Source: Laspinema sp. D2d (GTDB lineage: Bacteria; Cyanobacteriota; Cyanobacteriia; Cyanobacteriales; Laspinemataceae). Taken from it: 64,000 nucleotides of DNA. A program made the position numbers and the translations under genes. Position 1 is the first letter of the stretch; every line of letters starts with the position of its first letter. Under the pieces are notes generated by a model. The model searched no databases. It was given only the letters and a program-made list of their open reading frames with translations, and was not told where the DNA came from. Positions 39,626-49,804 of this stretch are shown piece by piece. The stretch lies in the NCBI RefSeq assembly GCF_025370755.1, contig NZ_JAMXFC010000019.1, positions 1 to 64,000 of the forward strand, in the 5' to 3' direction.

Positions 39626-41140
39626 TTAGAACTCCATCCGCTGGTATTCAGCGACGGAAGAAGCAGCTGGTCTAGCACGCTGTCTGGCCCAATCTCTCAG
39701 GGCGGTGACCTGTTCGGTCATAGTCTTCGACAGCGGTAGCGTAGACTTAATCGAAGCGATGATGTCTAGCTGCGTAAATTCTCTGTCTTGAGCAAACGCC
39801 TCGTACATGGCTGCAATCACAGCTTGTTCGATTTCTGCCCCGGAAAATCCATCCGAGACTTTCGCCAATTGCTCGATATCGAAGCGATCGATCTCTCGAC
39901 GCCGTTTGCTCAAGTGAATCTTAAAAATTTCTTGGCGTTCTTCATTGTTGGGAAGATCAACGAAGAAGATTTCGTCAAATCGTCCCTTTCTGAGGAACTC
40001 GCCCGGTAGTCTTTCGACTCGGTTGGCTGTAGCCATCACAAACACGGGGGAGGTTTTTTCTTGCATCCAGGTTAGGAAGGAACCAAAGATGCGACTAGAT
40101 GTGCCTCCATCGGAGTCCGATGATCCACCGCTTCCACCAAATGCTTTATCTAATTCATCGATAAATAGTAGCACGGGGGAAATGGATTCGGCTGTTTTCA
40201 AGGCGTTGCGGAGGTTGGCTTCCGATCGCCCCACCATCGAACCGTCATACACACGACCCATGTCCAATCGGAGTAAGGGTAAACCCCATAGGCGGGCCGT
40301 CGTTTTGGCAATCATTGACTTGCCACAACCCGGAACCCCGAGAATTAACATCCCTTTCGGTTGAGGTAAACCATATTCTCGCGCCCTTTCCGTAAAGGCA
40401 TTAGACCGTTGTCTGAGCCAGCGTTTCAGTTCTTCCAGACCTCCAACTGAATCTAGGGTTTCGTCCTCTTCTATATAATCGAGAATCCCATTACGTCGAA
40501 TGAGTTGTTTTTTCTCGGATAGGACGATATCTACTTCAGCTTCCGTCAGTTTTCCGCTCGTGACTTGCGCTTTGCGATAGACTTTTTCGGCTTCATCTCG
40601 CGTCAGACCTAGGGCGGCTTTTAAAAGTTTTTCCCGCGTTTCAGTCGTGATTTTACGAGTCCGACTCGTCTCTAGTTGCTGGGATAGCACCTGATTGAGT
40701 TCTGCCAAGTCCGGCAGAGCAAAGTCAATGACAACAACTTCTTTCTCAAGCTCAATGGGAACTTGCTGGAGCGGTGACATGAGGATGATGGCTTTTTGCG
40801 TGCCTTTAAAGCTGGCGATCGCATCTCTCAACCATCGGGTGGTTGCTGGAGAATCGATAAAGGGATGTAAATCTTTGAAGATAAACAAACCAGGCTCGCG
40901 CTGCCGTACCACCCACTCAATGGCCGCTTCTGGCGACACAGTATTGTGTTGGGTAACGTTGCGGGGTTGACCATACTCCACTATCCCGTGCGTTACAGTC
41001 CAGATAAAGACTTTACGCTGGGGCTTGATCTGAGCAATCGTTGCGATCGCCTGCTCGGCCCGTTCTTCCTCGGAGGTCACGAGGTAGATTAAAGGATATT
41101 GAGCTTGGATTAAGATATTGAGCTCTTCTTTCATGACCAT
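39626..41140 (-). CDS. ycf46: AAA+ ATPase Ycf46
   Basis: 504 residues. Residues ~1-230 are the family-specific N-terminal region (start MKEELNILIQAQYPLIYLVT after two residues); the AAA module covers ~255-440 with Walker A GVPGCGKSMIAK (~268), Walker B LLFIDELDKAFGG (~325) and the second region of homology ending in EFLRKGRFDE. Ycf46 is chloroplast-encoded in red algae; a Synechocystis homologue (Slr0374) has been linked to inorganic-carbon use. Two ATGs (41140, 41134) are close; AGAAGG favours the first. Confidence 0.92.
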   Translation of the reverse strand: MVMKEELNILIQAQYPLIYLVTSEEERAEQAIATIAQIKPQRKVFIWTVTHGIVEYGQPRNVTQHNTVSPEAAIEWVVRQREPGLFIFKDLHPFIDSPATTRWLRDAIASFKGTQKAIILMSPLQQVPIELEKEVVVIDFALPDLAELNQVLSQQLETSRTRKITTETREKLLKAALGLTRDEAEKVYRKAQVTSGKLTEAEVDIVLSEKKQLIRRNGILDYIEEDETLDSVGGLEELKRWLRQRSNAFTERAREYGLPQPKGMLILGVPGCGKSMIAKTTARLWGLPLLRLDMGRVYDGSMVGRSEANLRNALKTAESISPVLLFIDELDKAFGGSGGSSDSDGGTSSRIFGSFLTWMQEKTSPVFVMATANRVERLPGEFLRKGRFDEIFFVDLPNNEERQEIFKIHLSKRRREIDRFDIEQLAKVSDGFSGAEIEQAVIAAMYEAFAQDREFTQLDIIASIKSTLPLSKTMTEQVTALRDWARQRARPAASSVAEYQRMEF

Positions 41141-41240
41141 CGACCTTCTACAAACGGTGCCAACAATATTGCTAGATCTTTATTGCCCCTGGGTTTAGAT
41201 GCGGAGCACTAAATTTACTTCCCGGTGGAAGTGTTTGGGT

Positions 41241-41591
41241 TTAGCAGGGAACGAGTTGTTCCTCACCTTGTTGATCCGTGTTCGCGGTAACCGCTGGCAC
41301 TTTCTCAACCGTCAACCCTTCGTCAGCCAATATACTCGGCTGGTTTTTGAGGGATACCATTTCTCCATCGCGCATCACGATTGAGCTGGTGCAGTCGGGA
41401 CAGTTATAGACCCTATGGGTGCGCCCGTGGAATGACTCTAGTTCGTCTACCACGCCGGGGTGAGTCAGGTAAAAATCTATGGCTCGTTCGGCAATGGTTG
41501 ACATTGGCTCGGAGTCTACTGCGGCTCGTATTTTGAGCTGGCGATGCAGTTCTGGTGGCAGATACAATGTAACCTTTTGCTTGTCTTGCAT
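41241..41591 (-). CDS. Ribbon-helix-helix protein with CPDC motif
   Basis: 116 residues. Residues ~5-48 (QKVTLYLPPELHRQLKIRAA and the MSTIAERAIDFYL helix) form a ribbon-helix-helix DNA-binding domain. A Cys pair NCPDC at ~68-72 could bind a metal with other ligands, such as the His of HGRTHRVY. The rest is Gln/Glu-rich. It is 100 bp upstream of ycf46 on the same strand and may regulate the ycf46-ycf35 unit; that is inference. Confidence 0.75.
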   Translation of the reverse strand: MQDKQKVTLYLPPELHRQLKIRAAVDSEPMSTIAERAIDFYLTHPGVVDELESFHGRTHRVYNCPDCTSSIVMRDGEMVSLKNQPSILADEGLTVEKVPAVTANTDQQGEEQLVPC

Positions 41592-42685
41592 AGGACGCTG
41601 AATTGATTTACCCGGGTATGTGAACCATGTTAGCGATTCATTTCCAGACTGTCAAGATGCTAAACCACTTTGATGGCACTATTGTAACATTTCGTTACAA
41701 TTACCTCTGAAAATTCAGTCCAATCAAGAGCCATTTTTACCGGGTTTTACGCTATTAGTAGAGATGAGATGCGGTGTTAATACTAGATGTAGTGTCAACA
41801 GCCTTGATGTCGGGGAATGCGGTTATGGGAGGCGATCGGGCTTCCAAATCGGGATTAAGAGGATCCAATCCGTCTAATAGAGGATCCATTCCCAGTCCTG
41901 GAGCCAGAGTTGAGACCCCACAAACCCGAGGAAAGCAACAAAAAGGGAGCCAGGTAACCAGACCTTTCCTTAAAATGGCTCACAGGGATTGTCCAGTCCC
42001 GAACTCAGCGAGTCGCTGTTTGGGAGGGCGGTGAGGTCACCGGAATGGAGAAAATAGCTTGGTGGTGGGGTGGAGCGAAGGAAGTGGAAAAGCTCCGGAG
42101 GCTAACCCATCATTAGGGATTTCCATAAAAAAATGGGGCATTAGAGGTCTTAAGGAATTCCGAAGCCCCCCTTCCATTAAATATTTATTCCTCTAGCTTA
42201 CCCCCATCCTCGGGGGACGAGATGAGGATATCAAGGGCGGTTGAGGAAATCTCCCCGAGAAGATTTTATTTTTTGGAGTCCCTTAGTACATGGCGGTTTG
42301 TCAGTTTTAGAAGTCGCTCTATAAAGGTTATGTGTAAGTCCTGGCTTAGAGAAAGCTCAAATATGCAGGCAGGGTATCCGAGAGATTCCGAACTCATTCT
42401 TGATACCATGAGATCCATAACCCCAGGCTTTCACTGAAAGTCCATCAGAGCCATATTTAATTAAAGTCCCGGGGTTTTCCGTTTTTTTCCGGGTTTTTCC
42501 GACTTGTCAATATTAGCAGTATCAGCTTACAATGACAACAAAGAAACAAATCTCATAGGTTCACATAATGGGATCAACAAGCATTAAATATATGATTGTA
42601 ATACCTCCAACTAAATAAAGCTATATTTGACTATGATTTTGGATTTTTTTAATTTATTAGGTTAATCCTAGAGGTCTAATAACAT
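41592..42685. other. 1.1-kb region without recognised gene
   Basis: The frames of 71-86 codons here have no conserved look. There is a run GGAGGCGATCGGG near 41827, and a possible stem GGGGC...GCCCC around 42132-42168. From about 42470 the sequence turns AT-rich, marking the edge of the accessory island. A structured RNA in 41850-42180 is possible but I could not match tmRNA, RNase P, SRP or 6S. Confidence 0.4.
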
Positions 42686-43417
42686 ATGGAAAATTTAGTC
42701 TCAAAAATACGGACAGATTTAAACGCCTACCAGACTCACGTATCTGAGAAATTAATAGATCTCAGAAGTCAAGGTCTAATCTCGGAAACCGAATTCAAAA
42801 AAATTATTGTTGACGCGCAATTAACAGCCAAATCTATTATAGATGGATTAGCTTCTCAAGATAAATATACTGAAAAAGCTACCGAGATTTATGTTTACAG
42901 TTTGTTAGATAAATACAGGAATAAGATAGAGAATAAAATCCGGAAAATTGAAGAAAAACAAAAGGTTATAAAATTTCCTGGGAAGCAAGGAATTATCGAA
43001 ATTTATTTTAAAAATGAAGCTGGGCAATTAATAATTCCAGATAAAATGGATAGAGAAATTGCAGAGACATTTTTAGAAAATGTTTTGAAAATTCCGGCAA
43101 AATCAGTAACTATTGTTGTCGGACATCTAATTCGTATTCTCAAAATCAGATTAGAAGAGAAAAAAGGGCATCATTTTTTTAACAGCAATGCTTATACCAA
43201 TAAATTAGAACAAGAGAAAAAAGTAATTGAAATGATTTATCAAGAATTTGGTAAATTTATTGGGCAAATAGTTGATGGAGAATATCCGGACGAAGACAAG
43301 TATAAATATCAAAATGAGTTGTTAGAGGAAATGGTAAAAGTAGCTATAGATAGACAAAATTTGAATCAAGGTTTTTTAGATAAGTTGTTTTCGATCCTAA
43401 ATAGTAAATTAAATTAA
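42686..43417 (+). CDS. Unrecognised protein, paralogous to ORF at 44984
   Basis: 243 residues, Lys/Glu/Ile-rich. Residues ~1-95 are helical and probably coiled-coil; residues ~103-218 resemble the protein at 44984-45394 over nearly its full length (shared anchors Y-x2-NE-x-G...IP...R-x-I...F...L...P...VTIV-x-G and later FG-x2-I...YP...Y-x-NEL). No catalytic motif is recognised and no membrane segment is present. AGAGGT lies about 13 bases before the ATG. First gene of the AT-rich island and without HIP1 sites, unlike the flanking core genes. Function unknown. Confidence 0.75.
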   Translation: MENLVSKIRTDLNAYQTHVSEKLIDLRSQGLISETEFKKIIVDAQLTAKSIIDGLASQDKYTEKATEIYVYSLLDKYRNKIENKIRKIEEKQKVIKFPGKQGIIEIYFKNEAGQLIIPDKMDREIAETFLENVLKIPAKSVTIVVGHLIRILKIRLEEKKGHHFFNSNAYTNKLEQEKKVIEMIYQEFGKFIGQIVDGEYPDEDKYKYQNELLEEMVKVAIDRQNLNQGFLDKLFSILNSKLN

Positions 43418-43449
43418 ATTAAAGTAAACTTTATACAACCTTATTGGTA

Positions 43450-43758
43450 ATGCTTGAATTTTGCACTTCTTTCATCTTAATTATTGTCTTAGTTTATCCC
43501 GCTCAAAAATTTATTATCTTAGTCGCTCGTTTGCTCAACAAACACCTGCCAGAAAATACCCCACTACTACCTAATTTACCCATGAAAACTGCTACATCTC
43601 AGCTCAAACTTAAACAAGGTCATGCAAATCCTAAAGAAACACAATTAGCAGTACGAGGAGCTATTGTAGTTTCTGGTTTTATTGCCGCTGCAATCACGGG
43701 ATTTACTTGGTGGATTCCTATACTGATATGGGTGGTTATTATCAGAAGTGTTGAATGA
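43450..43758 (+). CDS. Small membrane protein truncated by IS insertion
   Basis: 102 residues from the ATG at 43450. Two membrane segments: ~3-26 (TSFILIIVLVYPAQKFIILV) and ~73-98 (IVVSGFIAAAITGFTWWIPI), joined by a basic loop. The last codons RSVE and the stop come from the left terminal repeat of the IS element. Without the IS and one target copy the frame would run on as ILVSFVDANS to a TAA at 44958, giving 109 residues with a full second helix. The truncated product may still insert in the membrane. 32 bp downstream of the 243-residue protein gene. Confidence 0.7.
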   Translation: MLEFCTSFILIIVLVYPAQKFIILVARLLNKHLPENTPLLPNLPMKTATSQLKLKQGHANPKETQLAVRGAIVVSGFIAAAITGFTWWIPILIWVVIIRSVE

Positions 43759-44914
43759 GTTTTAAGAGAAACCTAAAAATAGATACACTAATCCTGTCAA
43801 CTGCTAATTTTAGCCATTCAAAACGAGTTTTTTGAACCAGTGGACATAGCTGATATTTTCAGACATAAAAGCCTGTAAATACCTTAACTTATCTAAGGGT
43901 TTACTTCCAAAGCTAATGGGGATTTCCACTAACTGAAGGAGCAGATAGCAAATCAATGCAGCATAAATTTGGATCGAGATACCGTTGGGATTTTTTGTGA
44001 TTAAACGAGATAGCTTTAAATGCATTTTTAAAAACTTCCACAGTAATTCAATCTGCCATCTCCTTCGATAAATTTCTCCGATTTCTTCATTACTATATGC
44101 TAATTCTCCTGATTCCGGCAAATTAGTCATAAATCTAAATTCTGTCCGACTTTCTAAATCACAAAAAGTCACAACTCTGACTTGAACAGTTCGCTTACCG
44201 CTCCAGACTTCATAAGTTCCATCTTCTTTTAGATTCAGGGTAGAATTGTTTTTAATTCGTAGTACAAAATACTGATTTTCTTTTTTCAGTAATTCTTGAA
44301 CTCGCTCGGAGCTTGAAAATCCTCTATCCATTACAGCAACTCCATTCTGAGGCGTAGCTGCTATGGTTTCGTCTCCATATTCACTATCGTGACCTTGGCC
44401 AAAATGAATGTGTACTCCGTCAATGATTCCGCGTTCATTGTCAGTTCCTGCAAATAACTTGACTTGATGGTATTCCTGTTGCCATAATAATTTACTGGTT
44501 AAGGTAACTATTGTTGAATCGAGTGGGAATAAAATCAGCTTGTCTTTGCCTTTTTTTCGTTTTACATCGTCTTTTAATTTTTGAAACAACTTTTCAAATA
44601 TACCAACATCTCTATTCTTACTGGCTTTTGAAAAAGTTGATTTATCTATAGGAATATTTCGGCTGTTTAACCGAAAAAATAGCGAAGTCATCGTATCGAG
44701 ACTTTGGTCAAAACTAAAACCTAACCAGCAGGAGACAAATGTGAAAGTGTCCAACACCGGATAATCATCTTTGGGCAGGTCCGCAAGATAGCGTTTTATA
44801 ATTTTAGGAAAGTTAGAAAATGTCATTCCAGTTAGAATTTTCAGTTTTTATCAGTTTCGTATTATAGTTTATTCGGGAAATTTTTGCAACTTTTTCTATC
44901 ATTCAACACTTCTG
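43743..44914. mobile_element. Complete IS4-family insertion sequence (1172 bp)
   Basis: Ends CAGAAGTGTTGAATGA (43743-43758) and TCATTCAACACTTCTG (44899-44914) are perfect 16-bp terminal inverted repeats. They are flanked by identical 9-bp target duplications GGTTATTAT (43734-43742 and 44915-44923). One full transposase gene lies inside on the minus strand. Perfect ends and target copies show a recent, probably still mobile insertion. It splits a row of plus-strand genes. Confidence 0.95.
43810..44826 (-). CDS. IS4-family DDE transposase
   Basis: 338 residues, full length. DDE centre: first Asp in ILFPLDSTIVTLTS (~102), second in GVAVMDRGFSSSE (~165), and the YREK signature as YRRRWQIELLWKFLK (Y-x2-R-x3-E-x6-K, ~252-266) with the catalytic Glu. 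It cuts and pastes the element that encloses it. No frameshift or stop is visible, so it is probably active. Its direction is opposite to the interrupted operon. Confidence 0.93.
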   Translation of the reverse strand: MTFSNFPKIIKRYLADLPKDDYPVLDTFTFVSCWLGFSFDQSLDTMTSLFFRLNSRNIPIDKSTFSKASKNRDVGIFEKLFQKLKDDVKRKKGKDKLILFPLDSTIVTLTSKLLWQQEYHQVKLFAGTDNERGIIDGVHIHFGQGHDSEYGDETIAATPQNGVAVMDRGFSSSERVQELLKKENQYFVLRIKNNSTLNLKEDGTYEVWSGKRTVQVRVVTFCDLESRTEFRFMTNLPESGELAYSNEEIGEIYRRRWQIELLWKFLKMHLKLSRLITKNPNGISIQIYAALICYLLLQLVEIPISFGSKPLDKLRYLQAFMSENISYVHWFKKLVLNG

Positions 44915-44983
44915 GGTTATTATTTTAATTTTAGTCAGTTTTGTTGATGCGAATTCATAAAAATAGTTTAGGAGATAAAACTA

Positions 44984-45394
44984 ATGATTGACGATAAGAT
45001 TACTGTAGCTGGAAAATCTGTTCCTGTTTACTATGAAAATGAGCGTGGAGAAATAGTAATTCCCAGCGATATTGAACGGAAAATAGTGTTAGGGTTTGTT
45101 GGTAGAGCTTTAGCAACTCCAGTTACAGCAGTTACTATTGTGATTGGAGAGGCTTGGCGTGATATTCGTTTGACCTATGAAAGAGTTGTACAAGATATAG
45201 ATGTTGAAGTTTCCAGAACAAAAATTGAAGCTGAAAACAGAAAAATGAAAGATATTTTTGAGATTTTTGGCAGGGAAATTGCTGGTTTAGAATGTTTACC
45301 ACCCAGTTACCCTGAATCAGTAAAAAAAATGTATCGAAATGAACTTATTAAAAAGATGGAAAAAAGGTTGCAAGCTATTAGCAACAAAGACTAA
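44984..45394 (+). CDS. Unrecognised protein, short paralogue of ORF at 42686
   Basis: 136 residues with AGGAG nine bases before the ATG. Residues ~12-126 align with residues ~103-218 of the protein encoded at 42686-43417, with the core SVPVYYENERGEIVIPSD and the AVTIVIG strand, and a C-terminal helical part. It lacks the coiled-coil N-terminus of the larger paralogue. No catalytic motif seen. Before the IS insertion it would have followed the small membrane protein gene by 23 bp, forming one operon. Function unknown. Confidence 0.75.
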   Translation: MIDDKITVAGKSVPVYYENERGEIVIPSDIERKIVLGFVGRALATPVTAVTIVIGEAWRDIRLTYERVVQDIDVEVSRTKIEAENRKMKDIFEIFGREIAGLECLPPSYPESVKKMYRNELIKKMEKRLQAISNKD

Positions 45395-45405
45395 TTATCA
45401 AGCCA

Positions 45406-45678
45406 ATGAGTTACCTAAGAATATCGGGATTATCTAGTTTTAAGAAGCAGGTAGGAAAAAACATGAAAAGAAGAGATGACTCAAATCCAAACTTTCATTT
45501 GGCCACTAAAAAGGATAATAAGATCCAAATAGCAAGTAATGGTTTAGTTAAATTTGCTAGTGAAATTGTCCAAACTGAGGAGTCATTAAAAATTTTTTAC
45601 AACTCTGAGGTTAGCAAGAGTATTGTTCTTAGAACAGAATTTGAAATTTGGGATGAGTATGATCGCAAAAAGGGTTAG
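45406..45678 (+). CDS. Small unrecognised protein
   Basis: 90 residues, basic N-terminal half (FKKQVGKNMKRRDDSNPNF) and acidic end, no membrane segment. It begins 11 bp after the stop of the preceding gene and shares its AT-rich composition, so it is likely co-transcribed. I recognise no domain; an internal ATG at 45463 is an alternative start. Confidence 0.55.
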   Translation: MSYLRISGLSSFKKQVGKNMKRRDDSNPNFHLATKKDNKIQIASNGLVKFASEIVQTEESLKIFYNSEVSKSIVLRTEFEIWDEYDRKKG

Positions 45679-45721
45679 CCTGATGATATAGTTAAACCGA
45701 TTCTCTTGAATTGAACGAAAA

Positions 45722-46234
45722 GTGAAACCCTATCTCAAGTCAATATCTGGAATAACTTACCCTCAATTTCTAGCAATTATGGGATTGATTTTTGGTGTTT
45801 GTATTTTAGTGGTTTCCTTCGAGGTAGTGGAAGGTTTTTTCACATCTCAAAACTTGTCATCATCCAGCAAAAGTACACCGCACAACTCCGCTCCCAAACA
45901 AACAATCGTTAGATATTATCAGTTAGCAACCACAAATAGGCAAGAAGCTATCAAGCTACTCAGCGACCCTTGGCGACGACAAGCAGCCACCCAAATTAAC
46001 GATAACTGGTGGAATTCTATTAGACGAGTTGAAGTGTATGCTTTTAAAACTTTTGCGAAAAATAATAGTAAAGCCAAAATCAAGGTCTGGTTAAAATATC
46101 AGATGAAAAATGGTCAAACTCCATGTGAAAGTTTGATTTTTAATTTAATCTTTGATAGGAGTAGAAATCAATGGCTCATGGATAGTGTTGAACCCAACAG
46201 TGTCATCCAGAATCCCTATTGCAATAGTAAATAA
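45722..46234 (+). CDS. Membrane-anchored protein with NTF2-like outer domain
   Basis: 170 residues from a GTG. One membrane helix (~14-36, FLAIMGLIFGVCILVVSFEV), a Ser/Lys-rich linker, then a domain (~58-165) of the type IVRYYQLATTNRQEAIKLLS ... NDNWWNSIRRVEVYAF ... LKYQMKNGQTPCESLIFNLI ... WLMDSVE. The same kind of domain stands at the C-terminus of many cyanobacterial Ser/Thr kinases and TPR proteins outside the membrane. Likely a sensory or protein-binding module. Last gene of the island, convergent with the HTH gene by a 26-bp gap. Confidence 0.6.
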   Translation: MKPYLKSISGITYPQFLAIMGLIFGVCILVVSFEVVEGFFTSQNLSSSSKSTPHNSAPKQTIVRYYQLATTNRQEAIKLLSDPWRRQAATQINDNWWNSIRRVEVYAFKTFAKNNSKAKIKVWLKYQMKNGQTPCESLIFNLIFDRSRNQWLMDSVEPNSVIQNPYCNSK

Positions 46235-46260
46235 TCTTTCTTCATCCCATCGCAGCTAAT

Positions 46261-46797
46261 TTATTCCATCCACTCCTGAACTTCATTGAACGGTAAATCC
46301 AGAGATTCAGCAATTTGTTCGGCGGTTAAGCCCAGTTGACTCAACTTTTCAACCGCCTTGAATTTTGTCTCTCGCAATACCTCTTCAACCCGGTATTTAT
46401 CCTTCTTTATAGTATGTTTTTCCTTAAATTCAGCATCGAAATTGTCTCTATTTTTCAAGTCACCAGTTTCAGGTTGGTTGCAAATATTGATATGTTCAAT
46501 ATTAACAGAATTACTGATAATATGATGCTGATAATTTACAAATCCTAAACGCTCAACTGTGGCGACTAAGTTAGACCTATTTAACTTTTCGCCAAACACC
46601 TCCGATAACAATCGCCACAGTTCGTATCCCTCATCCCTAGCATGACCCGTAGTGCATCCGTACTTTTTGGCGATCGCAGCATACTTCTGTCCGTTAAGGA
46701 CTCCCGTTAAAATCGCCAATTGCAGACTATCTAGGTGTTCTCCGGTTTCCCTAAAGACTAACTCATCAATCGACTTTACCACTGCTTGCCAGTCCAT
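46261..46797 (-). CDS. vWA-MoxR-associated type HTH protein
   Basis: 178 residues. Residues ~1-90 carry the same HTH type as the protein at 1299 (LDSLQLAILTGVLNGQKYAA, then a KLNRSNLVATVERLGF end). Residues ~92-140 are low-complexity and charged. The C-terminus AVEKLSQLGLTAEQIAESLD and then LPFNEVQEW is a second short HTH-like motif, also found at the end of Rpn/PD-(D/E)XK-transposase proteins. In other genomes this N-terminal HTH is fused to ATPase, protease or TPR effectors; here no effector is attached. It may regulate the adjacent island. Confidence 0.65.
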   Translation of the reverse strand: MDWQAVVKSIDELVFRETGEHLDSLQLAILTGVLNGQKYAAIAKKYGCTTGHARDEGYELWRLLSEVFGEKLNRSNLVATVERLGFVNYQHHIISNSVNIEHINICNQPETGDLKNRDNFDAEFKEKHTIKKDKYRVEEVLRETKFKAVEKLSQLGLTAEQIAESLDLPFNEVQEWME

Positions 46798-47019
46798 GTA
46801 CTCCTAATGACTCTTCTTAAACATCTTCATCTTCTCCCATTATCCGACATTTTCCTTCCCTGTGACCGCGCATCAAAGAATAGGGGGTTGACAAAAGTGA
46901 TGGCGATCGCCTACACTCCCATCGATAGCTTCAACATTGCTATAGACATGACTAAAAAATCAATTTTAACAAAAAAGCACCCAAACCCAGGGATGAGGGG
47001 ACTCTAACCCATCACAGGG

Positions 47020-47808
47020 TCATTCCCTTATTCCTTGCTCTCTTAACTGTGTATCCACCCAAGCTGCTTCAGATTCAGAGAAAGCGGGGATAGGTTGCGT
47101 GCTATAATCAATCACAAAGTCATATCCCGCCCGGTCATATAACTGATTTAATAACTGGTTTAAATCAATTATCGGTTCCGTATCCCCAGAACGTAGCGGG
47201 AGGGGAAACGTGGGAATTGTCTCGGGTAAATTAAACAGAGATAAGTCTGCATAAGGACGGCGATCGCCTCGACTGACCAGAATCCGATAATGCGCCTCCA
47301 CATCGTTTCCTAAAACCGGCATCGGTTCCCCACCCCGCAACAGGTCAATTTCCACCAAATGAGTCCGACTGGCTAAAATGCGGCTCCGCTTTTCTTCATA
47401 CACCTCGCGCCCTTTTCTTCGGCGCTTATTTGCCGGAGAAAGCACCTTGATCGCCGTTACTACTTCCCCGGTTGCCATCTCCCGCACTTCTAAATAGGCC
47501 TCCCGAAATTCCATCCTCATCGGCACTTCCACCGGCAGAGGTTTTTGAGTCGGAGGCGCTGCTACTGCTACATTAGAATCTTGCTGTGGCGTAAGAGGGC
47601 GACGCTCCACCACGACATCAGGAATTCCCACCAATAAACTATCATTTGCAGCACTTTCATACACCCGTTTTTCGATAGCAACTCGATATTTGGGTCGCAA
47701 CTGAGGGACTAATAAATCTGCGATTTCTATCATTAAACGACTATGAACCTCGGGCCAAAAATTTGGCCCTTCTAAATATGGGTTCATCCCTGGAAATGGA
47801 GAAGGCAT
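47020..47808 (-). CDS. DUF4058 family protein
   Basis: 262 residues with the family start MPSPFPGMNPYLEGPNFWPE followed by VHSRLM, and the core phrases AIEKRVYE and IKVLSPANKRRRKGREVYEE. DUF4058 proteins are abundant in filamentous cyanobacteria and some other bacteria, often in many copies, with a predicted nuclease-like fold; no activity is known. It lies downstream of thrS but is separated from it by a long inverted repeat. Confidence 0.9.
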   Translation of the reverse strand: MPSPFPGMNPYLEGPNFWPEVHSRLMIEIADLLVPQLRPKYRVAIEKRVYESAANDSLLVGIPDVVVERRPLTPQQDSNVAVAAPPTQKPLPVEVPMRMEFREAYLEVREMATGEVVTAIKVLSPANKRRRKGREVYEEKRSRILASRTHLVEIDLLRGGEPMPVLGNDVEAHYRILVSRGDRRPYADLSLFNLPETIPTFPLPLRSGDTEPIIDLNQLLNQLYDRAGYDFVIDYSTQPIPAFSESEAAWVDTQLREQGIRE

Positions 47809-47977: not shown

Positions 47978-49804
47978 CTAGAAATTGGTGCGATCGCGAT
48001 TGGCAACCTTCATCTTTTCAATCACCTCTGCCACCGCCATCGTTCCCAACTCCCCACCGGCGCGGGTGCGAATACTTAACTGATTCGCTTCCACTTCTTT
48101 AGCCCCAACTACAGCCATCACCGGAATCTTTTCCTTTTCTCCATTGCGAATCAGCTTCCCTAAACGCTCTCCACTGGTATCGGCTTCAGCCCGAATTCCC
48201 TCAATTCGCATCCGAGTGGCTACCTCTTTCGCAAAGGGTAGAAATTCATCACTCACCGGCAATAAGCGCATTTGAATTGGTGCTAACCAGAAGGGGAAAT
48301 CTCCGGCATATTCCTCAATTAAAATCCCAATCAGCCGTTCCAATGACCCAAAAGGTGCACGGTGAATCATCACCGGACGTTTGCGCGTGCCATCTTCGCC
48401 CACATATTCTAATTGGAAGCGTTCCGGCAAGTTGTAGTCCACTTGGACGGTTCCTAACTGCCACTCACGTTCAAGCGCATCCTGGAAAATAAAATCCAGT
48501 TTTGGCCCATAAAATGCCGCTTCTCCTGGCGCTTCAAAAGACTCCATCCCTAGGGTATCAACAGCGCGACGGATGGCATTTTCGGCCTTATTCCATGCCT
48601 CATCCGACCCGATATATTTATCAGATTCGGGGTCACGGAAACTCAACCGGGCTTTAAAGTTTTTCAGTTGCAAACTATTAAAGACCGATAAGATTAAATC
48701 CACCACACTCAGGAATTCATCATCCAGTTGTTCTGGAGTCACGAACAGGTGAGAATCATCCACGGTAAAGCCGCGAACTCGGGTTAATCCCCCCAATTCT
48801 CCCGATTGTTCATAGCGGTAAACAGTGCCAAATTCCGCGAGACGCATGGGTAAATCCCGATAGGAACGCAACTCGTTTTTATAAATTTGGATATGGAACG
48901 GACAGTTCATGGGTTTAAGCACAAACCCCCGTTCTTCTGCGGCGGATTCTTCATCCTCTGCCATCATGGGGAACATATCCTCTTTATATTGTTGCCAATG
49001 ACCGGAGGTTTTAAATAGGTCAATTCTGGCAATATGAGGGGTGACAACGCCGAGATATCCGCGTTTGACTTGTTCCTGTTTGAGGAAGTCTTCGAGCACA
49101 CTGCGTAAAACGGTGCCTTTGGGGGTCCATAAGGGTAATCCGGGACCTACGGGGTCGGCAAACAAAAAGAGTCCGAGTTCTTTGCCGAGTTTGCGGTGAT
49201 CTCGTTTGAGGGCTTCTTCTTTGCGTCTCTTGTATTCGGTGAGTTGTTCGGGGGTTTCCCAGGCGGTGCCGTAGATGCGCTGGAGTTGTTGTTTGCTGGC
49301 ATCGCCGCGCCAGTAGGCCCCAGCTAAACTTTCGAGTTCGATCGCCTTGGGGTGAAGTTCGCTGGTATTTTCAACATGGGGACCCGCACACAAATCCCAC
49401 CATTCTTCCCCGAGGTGATAAATGGTAATCGGTTCTTGTTTGATGTCCCCGAGAATTTCTAACTTGTAGGGTTCATTAATGGCTTTGATGCGTCTTTCCG
49501 CTTCTTCTCGGGTGACTTCTTCACGGGTGACGGGTAATTTCCGGTTGATGATTTTGACCATCTCTTTTTTGATGGCTTTGAGGTCCTGTTCAGTGAAGGT
49601 CTCAGGATTGTCAAAATCATAATAAAATCCATTATCAATCCAAGGTCCAATAGTCACTTGGGCCTTGGGGAAAAGCTTCTGGACTGCCATCGCCATCACA
49701 TGAGAGGTGGTGTGGCGAATCTTTTTGAGTTGCTCAGATTCGCTGGTACGCGGCAAGTAAATTTTTTCGGCGGGTGCTTCGACAGCCGGAGATGAGTTAG
49801 CCAT
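47978..49804 (-). CDS. thrS: Threonine-tRNA ligase
   Basis: 608 residues. It lacks the N-terminal TGS domain, as in other cyanobacteria, and begins near the editing domain with HTTSHVMAMAVQKLFPKA (~32-49, zinc/editing HxxxH type). Catalytic class II core: the zinc ligand in MNCPFHI, motif 2 FGTVYRYEQSGELGGLTRVR, motif 3 HRAPFGSLERLIGIL; the anticodon-binding domain follows from ~500 (RLLPVSDEF). Charges tRNA-Thr in the cytoplasm. It is divergent from the DUF2605 gene; no T-box is visible upstream. Confidence 0.96.
   Translation of the reverse strand: MANSSPAVEAPAEKIYLPRTSESEQLKKIRHTTSHVMAMAVQKLFPKAQVTIGPWIDNGFYYDFDNPETFTEQDLKAIKKEMVKIINRKLPVTREEVTREEAERRIKAINEPYKLEILGDIKQEPITIYHLGEEWWDLCAGPHVENTSELHPKAIELESLAGAYWRGDASKQQLQRIYGTAWETPEQLTEYKRRKEEALKRDHRKLGKELGLFLFADPVGPGLPLWTPKGTVLRSVLEDFLKQEQVKRGYLGVVTPHIARIDLFKTSGHWQQYKEDMFPMMAEDEESAAEERGFVLKPMNCPFHIQIYKNELRSYRDLPMRLAEFGTVYRYEQSGELGGLTRVRGFTVDDSHLFVTPEQLDDEFLSVVDLILSVFNSLQLKNFKARLSFRDPESDKYIGSDEAWNKAENAIRRAVDTLGMESFEAPGEAAFYGPKLDFIFQDALEREWQLGTVQVDYNLPERFQLEYVGEDGTRKRPVMIHRAPFGSLERLIGILIEEYAGDFPFWLAPIQMRLLPVSDEFLPFAKEVATRMRIEGIRAEADTSGERLGKLIRNGEKEKIPVMAVVGAKEVEANQLSIRTRAGGELGTMAVAEVIEKMKVANRDRTNF

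Follow-up and report, generated by a model that had tools for sequence, protein, structure and literature searches.

What sort of element is encoded by the run of small genes in an AT-rich island of the cyanobacterium Laspinema sp. D2d, and do these genes form a system at all? The island lies in the stretch of DNA analyzed here, i.e., positions 1–64,000 of the forward strand of contig NZ_JAMXFC010000019.1 (assembly GCF_025370755.1; hereafter the window), and its five plus-strand genes, numbered g1 to g5 in 5' to 3' order, had been described in a first-pass annotation as a horizontally acquired, membrane-linked cassette with a possible role in defense or signaling. It is near certain that the cassette is a real gene unit, and it travels as a block between filamentous cyanobacteria. 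As for its function, sequence features give a slightly better than even chance that it is a horizontally moving, membrane-anchored conflict cassette of multicellular cyanobacteria, probably of the anti-phage or cell-suicide type.

The status of the cassette as a unit is borne out by its distribution. A survey of gene neighborhoods in other cyanobacteria was positive, recovering the same gene order in five other genomes (G044, G487, G574, G656 and G451), which belong to three additional families within the order and bring the host families to four in all. The order g1-g2-g3-g4 is identical in all six genomes, with g5 present in four of them, and across the loci g1, g2 and g3 are separated by very short gaps or overlap. 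Among 391 genomes of the order, the g3 profile matches just these six and the g1 profile the same six plus one weak extra (G647, E = 0.004), the surroundings of which hold no cassette; g2 was found in five of 283 genomes, each a cassette genome. Homologues scattered without a conserved neighborhood were thus not what the surveys with g1, g2 and g3 encountered. Elsewhere, a phylum-wide sample returned the window alone plus one stray match (E = 0.003), and no wider homologues of the cassette genes were found in bacterial genome contigs and viral contigs; a candidate on contig L008 (E = 0.005) was set aside, its contig holding a histidine kinase and no cassette.

The cassette genes are under purifying selection: the ratio of nonsynonymous to synonymous substitution rates (dN/dS) stays below 1 throughout, in all genes and in all pairs for which dS could be measured (0.08–0.67), including the close pair G044 and G487, which represent one lineage (0.19–0.44). 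The four gene trees are congruent. In the cassette tree, G656 clusters with G451, a member of another family (f20), and not with G574 from its own family (f2), and a topology forced to follow the host families is rejected (approximately unbiased test, p = 3e-7). The cassette is also missing from seven congeneric species, and in all six loci it is richer in AT than its surroundings. The absence from congeners and the conflict between cassette tree and host families uphold the proposed horizontal acquisition; ancient duplication followed by loss is possible as an alternative to transfer, but less economical.

The features of the island and its two flanks are as follows.

41241–41591, minus strand: small ribbon-helix-helix (RHH) gene, conserved, bordering the variable site on the left
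42686–43417, plus strand: g1 (243 aa), N-terminal helical domain fused to a g3-type domain
43450–43742, plus strand: g2, membrane protein, its 3' end interrupted by an insertion sequence (IS)
43743–44914, minus strand: IS4-family IS (transposase at 43810–44826), with 16-bp terminal inverted repeats and a 9-bp duplication
44924–44960, plus strand: 3' remnant of g2 cut off by the IS (empty-site frame of 109 aa)
44984–45394, plus strand: g3 (136 aa), shared domain
45406–45678, plus strand: g4 (90 aa), small soluble protein
45722–46234, plus strand: g5 (170 aa), transmembrane (TM) segment and NTF2-like outer domain
46261–46797, minus strand: helix-turn-helix (HTH) protein (178 aa), of a family that elsewhere adjoins the cassette divergently
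47020–47808, minus strand: DUF4058 gene, conserved, bordering the variable site on the right

Set between the RHH and DUF4058 genes, the island thus comprises the five plus-strand genes and a single minus-strand HTH gene. The coordinates and lengths originally assigned to the five genes were all reproduced from the open reading frames (ORFs), with 243, 136, 90 and 170 aa read directly and a 109-aa frame for g2 after rejoining the flanks of the IS. Its low GC, also claimed at the outset, is evident from values of 0.29–0.37 in the core, with 0.39 in intervals overlapping the edges, vs about 0.45–0.50 outside. Similarly, the reported lack of the octamer GCGATCGC was recovered as a gap of 5.6 kb (41043–46670), the longest octamer-free run in a window that carries 82 copies in total (the next longest is 3.0 kb). 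No tRNA genes were found in the window and no Rfam families in 41500–47500, so no RNA marks an integration site there, and no shared inverted repeat was found upstream of g1.

What relatives keep at this site points to the kind of cargo it receives. The left flank is 95–97% identical in all seven sister species, with homology ending at window positions 41890–41953, and the right flank resumes at 47016–47029 in six of the seven (G006 is the exception: its recovered match, on another contig, begins at 48418). Four sister species have the two flanks on a single contig, with 7–10 kb of other DNA in between. At the G002 site this DNA encodes a MoxR AAA ATPase, a vWA_CoxE protein, an iSTAND protein (PF19995, 2.8e-27) and a HEAT protein, which by family would correspond to the iSTAND ternary conflict system of PMC7159879. 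By comparison of translations, this set recurs in G004 and G007, and part of it in G003; G007 additionally carries HepT/nucleotidyltransferase genes of the toxin-antitoxin kind, while the G005 site codes for HTH-AAA_35, AAA_35-vWA and DUF3368 proteins. Since the sister species hold such predicted systems there, the cassette fills a slot that its relatives use for conflict systems, and this location makes it a candidate defense system; the co-location at the hotspot is an association and not proof. Sporadic distribution, horizontal transfer and residence in a conflict-system hotspot, general hallmarks of conflict systems, are all seen for the cassette.

A further association is with HTH and STAND genes. 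An HTH gene stands right beside g1, in divergent orientation, in the five other genomes, and in the window the HTH gene, as first annotated, is convergent at the 3' end of the cassette (46261–46797, minus strand). One HTH family accounts for four of the six loci; that family has 7–28 copies in each genome, and a rough estimate puts the probability that all four adjacencies arose by chance at 7e-10, although G044 and G487 count as one lineage. In G574 the cassette-side HTH protein carries a fused NB-ARC domain; in G044 and G487 it is fused to pentapeptide repeats and a C-terminal domain that, judged by its motif, is putatively nuclease-like. An EAD4-NB-ARC-TPR protein is encoded near the G451 cassette, its start lying about 1.1 kb away from the neighboring HTH gene. 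The G044 locus has adjoining ParDE and Uma2 genes, with ParDE next to the HTH gene of the cassette. The same HTH family is represented once more in the window, at 1299–2160 on the plus strand, by a 133-aa protein with an HTH and pentapeptide-like repeats; its gene overlaps another ORF that carries the nuclease-like C-terminal domain of the G044/G487 type, and the two look like a single gene split by a frameshift.

The gene products themselves combine membrane-associated parts with domains that are new by the libraries scanned. As the first-pass annotation had noticed, g1 and g3 share a domain of about 115 residues (30% identity over 115 residues, E = 3e-13). In g1 of the window this g3-type domain (about 42995–43339) follows an N-terminal domain (42686–42973) predicted to form a three-helix bundle (predicted local distance difference test score, pLDDT, 84), and this fusion, which suggests that g1 and g3 act together, is peculiar to the window. 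The g1 proteins of the five other genomes have the N-terminal helical domain only, without the shared domain. The long/short paralogue pairing expected to be conserved is therefore specific to the window, and such a pair as the core of the system is ruled out. These shorter g1 proteins end in an amphipathic basic tail, which suggests peripheral membrane binding.

The claim that two of the genes encode membrane proteins proved accurate. The g2 protein has two long hydrophobic regions, possibly amounting to three segments (the second region is long enough for two helices), joined by a lysine-rich loop with an invariant K-x-K-x-G-x-A motif. The g5 protein has one TM segment within an N-terminal region of about 33 residues that is constant (SISG-x2-YPxF plus the TM; 55% identity between the window and G656), and its outer domain has been exchanged between genomes, being NTF2-like in the window and SPOR-like in three others. 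The resemblance of the window version to Ser/Thr-kinase outer domains, part of the initial description, is reflected in a match to the C-terminal domain of a Ser/Thr kinase-like protein of the same genome (E = 1.4e-4). SPOR domains bind peptidoglycan; the SPOR (PF05036) score is 22.9 bits in G574, above the Pfam cut-off of 21, and 17.8 and 15.0 bits in G656 and G451, both below it. A small C-terminal signature (E-S-x-K ... S ... W-x-x-Y-x-R) is conserved in g4.

For g3, a beta-beta-alpha-beta-beta unit followed by two long helices is predicted (pLDDT 82), and a hydrophobic stretch of about 20 residues, present in all six genomes (residues 34–54 in the window), makes contact with the membrane possible. 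The g3-type domain is prone to duplication: it appears whole, fused to g1, in the window, and in G656 and G574 g3 is followed by one or two short copies of its C-terminal part. These tandem short ORFs (L020 8313–8826; L019 7713–7898) correspond to the C-terminal half of g3 and no more, a sign that this part may be functional, or under selection, by itself.

The initial impression that no family could be recognized holds for g1–g4, none of which has a match in Pfam, NCBIfam or PADLOC where scanned. Nothing credible was found for g1 in these three libraries, nor a significant fold match in the PDB; for g3 the same is true of Pfam, NCBIfam, PADLOC, PHROGs, PDB sequences and PDB or viral folds, and for g2 and g4 of the Pfam, NCBIfam and PADLOC scans, with the g2 proteins of the window, G044, G656 and G451 falling in no Pfam family. 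Foldseek searches with the models of the g1 N-terminal domain and of g3 gave no match at E <= 0.001, so that the shared domain, represented by the g3 model, has no known fold among PDB and viral models. PADLOC-DB 2.0.0 identified no credible system component in the cassette, only weak stray matches. Weak matches to LSDAT_euk (0.02), to apolipoprotein-like proteins on a coiled coil and to Csm2 (0.01) were set aside as chance. Judged against these libraries, g1–g4 would represent four previously undescribed protein families.

These parts can be assembled into a working scheme. The g1 protein, with its helical bundle and amphipathic basic tail, might form with g3 and g4 a cytoplasmic or peripheral complex on the membrane protein g2, a proposal that draws partly on the g1–g3 fusion. 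Through its exchangeable outer domain, g5 would fix this complex to the periplasm or cell wall, serving as an anchor in the envelope or as a sensor, and the adjoining HTH protein, together with a STAND ATPase in some genomes, would sense the invader and/or control the cassette. Once triggered, g2, possibly with g3, would disturb the membrane, and the infected cell would stop growing or die. A new anti-invader system of precisely this make—a helical adaptor, a two-TM effector, an alpha/beta partner and a small helper, tethered to the envelope via a swappable periplasmic domain and under HTH-STAND control—is a tentative proposal, to which we would give somewhat less than an even chance. If true, a membrane-based immune or cell-suicide system whose core lacks any known protein family would be added to the conflict systems of filamentous bacteria, in which such systems are thought to be important for protecting the filament. 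The cassette is a small, clonable gene set, and intact copies exist in other genomes.

Parallels might be struck with several known systems. EACC1, System 4 of Kaur et al. 2020 (PMC7159879), is a two-gene membrane-associated conflict system which, like the cassette, sets a protein with exchangeable domains beside a small, constant partner that has a membrane segment and short alpha+beta extensions, and favors multicellular bacteria. However, no EACC1 domain is present in any of the seven g3-type domains (Pfam scan to E 0.5), no caspase or cNMP-cyclase partner is seen with Pfam in the cassette or the adjoining HTH genes, and the cassette has four core genes in cyanobacteria, whereas EACC1 has two in actinobacteria. 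The iSTAND MoxR-vWA ternary systems, some of them membrane-proximal with cell-wall-binding domains (PMC7159879), hold the same chromosomal site in sister species, but the cassette has no MoxR, vWA or iSTAND protein. The bacterial TRADD-N/Death-like systems (PMC8195603) likewise have ECF-like HTH or STAND partners, pentapeptide repeats and HEAT or TPR, and occur in multicellular cyanobacteria, yet Pfam detects no such domain in the g1 N-terminal domain or g3, and neither has a significant PDB fold match. Finally, g2 resembles the SLATT proteins, two-TM pore-forming effectors of conflict systems (PMC7159879), in being a small two-TM protein in a conflict-like neighborhood, but it has no Pfam, NCBIfam or PADLOC match and the cassette has no nucleotide-signal enzyme. 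Because none of the tested defining features of these kinds was found, the cassette would, on present annotation, be filed under none of them.

Several observations weigh against a conflict role. No cassette homologues were found on plasmids and phages, and hence nothing seen here ties the cassette directly to an invader; g1–g4 showed no domain that is catalytic or known from effectors; the HTH genes of G656 and G451 belong to another subfamily, with similarity over just 33 columns; the SPOR and NTF2-like outer domains also suit an envelope or signaling role; and the hotspot argument is guilt by association, for the site could take any cargo. Of the initial description, the membrane link stands, and a possible defense role draws indirect support from the hotspot and the HTH/STAND neighbors. 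An unlikely but still appreciable alternative is an accessory envelope or signaling cassette, a sporadic niche trait in which a membrane complex, with g5 as periplasmic sensor or cell-wall binder, tunes the envelope, septum or filament. Such a function would sit well with two of the five genes encoding membrane proteins and with a g5 outer domain that is SPOR-like (in G574 above the Pfam cut-off) or akin to Ser/Thr-kinase outer domains, but less well with a very sporadic distribution (6/391), transfer across host families, conflict systems swapping in at the same site and the HTH-STAND genes adjoining the cassette.

Less probable again is a module of the toxin-antitoxin or addiction type that would hold its island in place and have no specific defense role (e.g., g2 might be a membrane toxin, with its antidote supplied by g4 or g1). 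The conserved genes, numbering four to five and including one for a protein with a periplasmic domain, exceed what a typical module needs, and no known toxin or antitoxin family is matched, even if short overlapping genes, low GC and mobility, the toxin-antitoxin genes adjoining in G044, the HepT/nucleotidyltransferase genes at the same site in G007 and the tandem partial g3 copies in G574 and G656 would all be in keeping with it. That unrelated small genes piled up at a hotspot and were misread as a system is very improbable indeed: AT-rich DNA, an internal IS and a g1 fusion unique to the window might give that impression, but conserved order, exclusive co-occurrence, purifying selection and congruent trees speak against it, and the conserved cassette in five other genomes refutes it, with only the local IS-damaged copy perhaps decaying.

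That local copy is interrupted within g2 by an IS of 1172 bp with perfect 16-bp terminal inverted repeats, flanked by a 9-bp target duplication, GGTTATTAT, at 43734–43742 and 44915–44923. Its transposase is of the IS4 family (NF033592, 2.6e-52) and is about 56–60% identical to IS4 transposases of cyanobacterial plasmids, IS4Sa among them. Joining both flanks in silico gives the 109-aa g2 frame; the insertion replaces the last ~11 residues of g2 with RSVE and splits g1-g2 from g3-g5, so the cassette copy of the window may be impaired.

Two minor observations concern neighboring DNA. Just 5' of the cassette, a non-coding segment (~42112–42296) is a dispersed intergenic repeat with dozens of matches (~70–100% identity) across genomes of the genus. 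Beside the G487 cassette (L018 5831–6524) lie two small ORFs that resemble a toxin C-terminus and an immunity-like partner, with no Pfam match.

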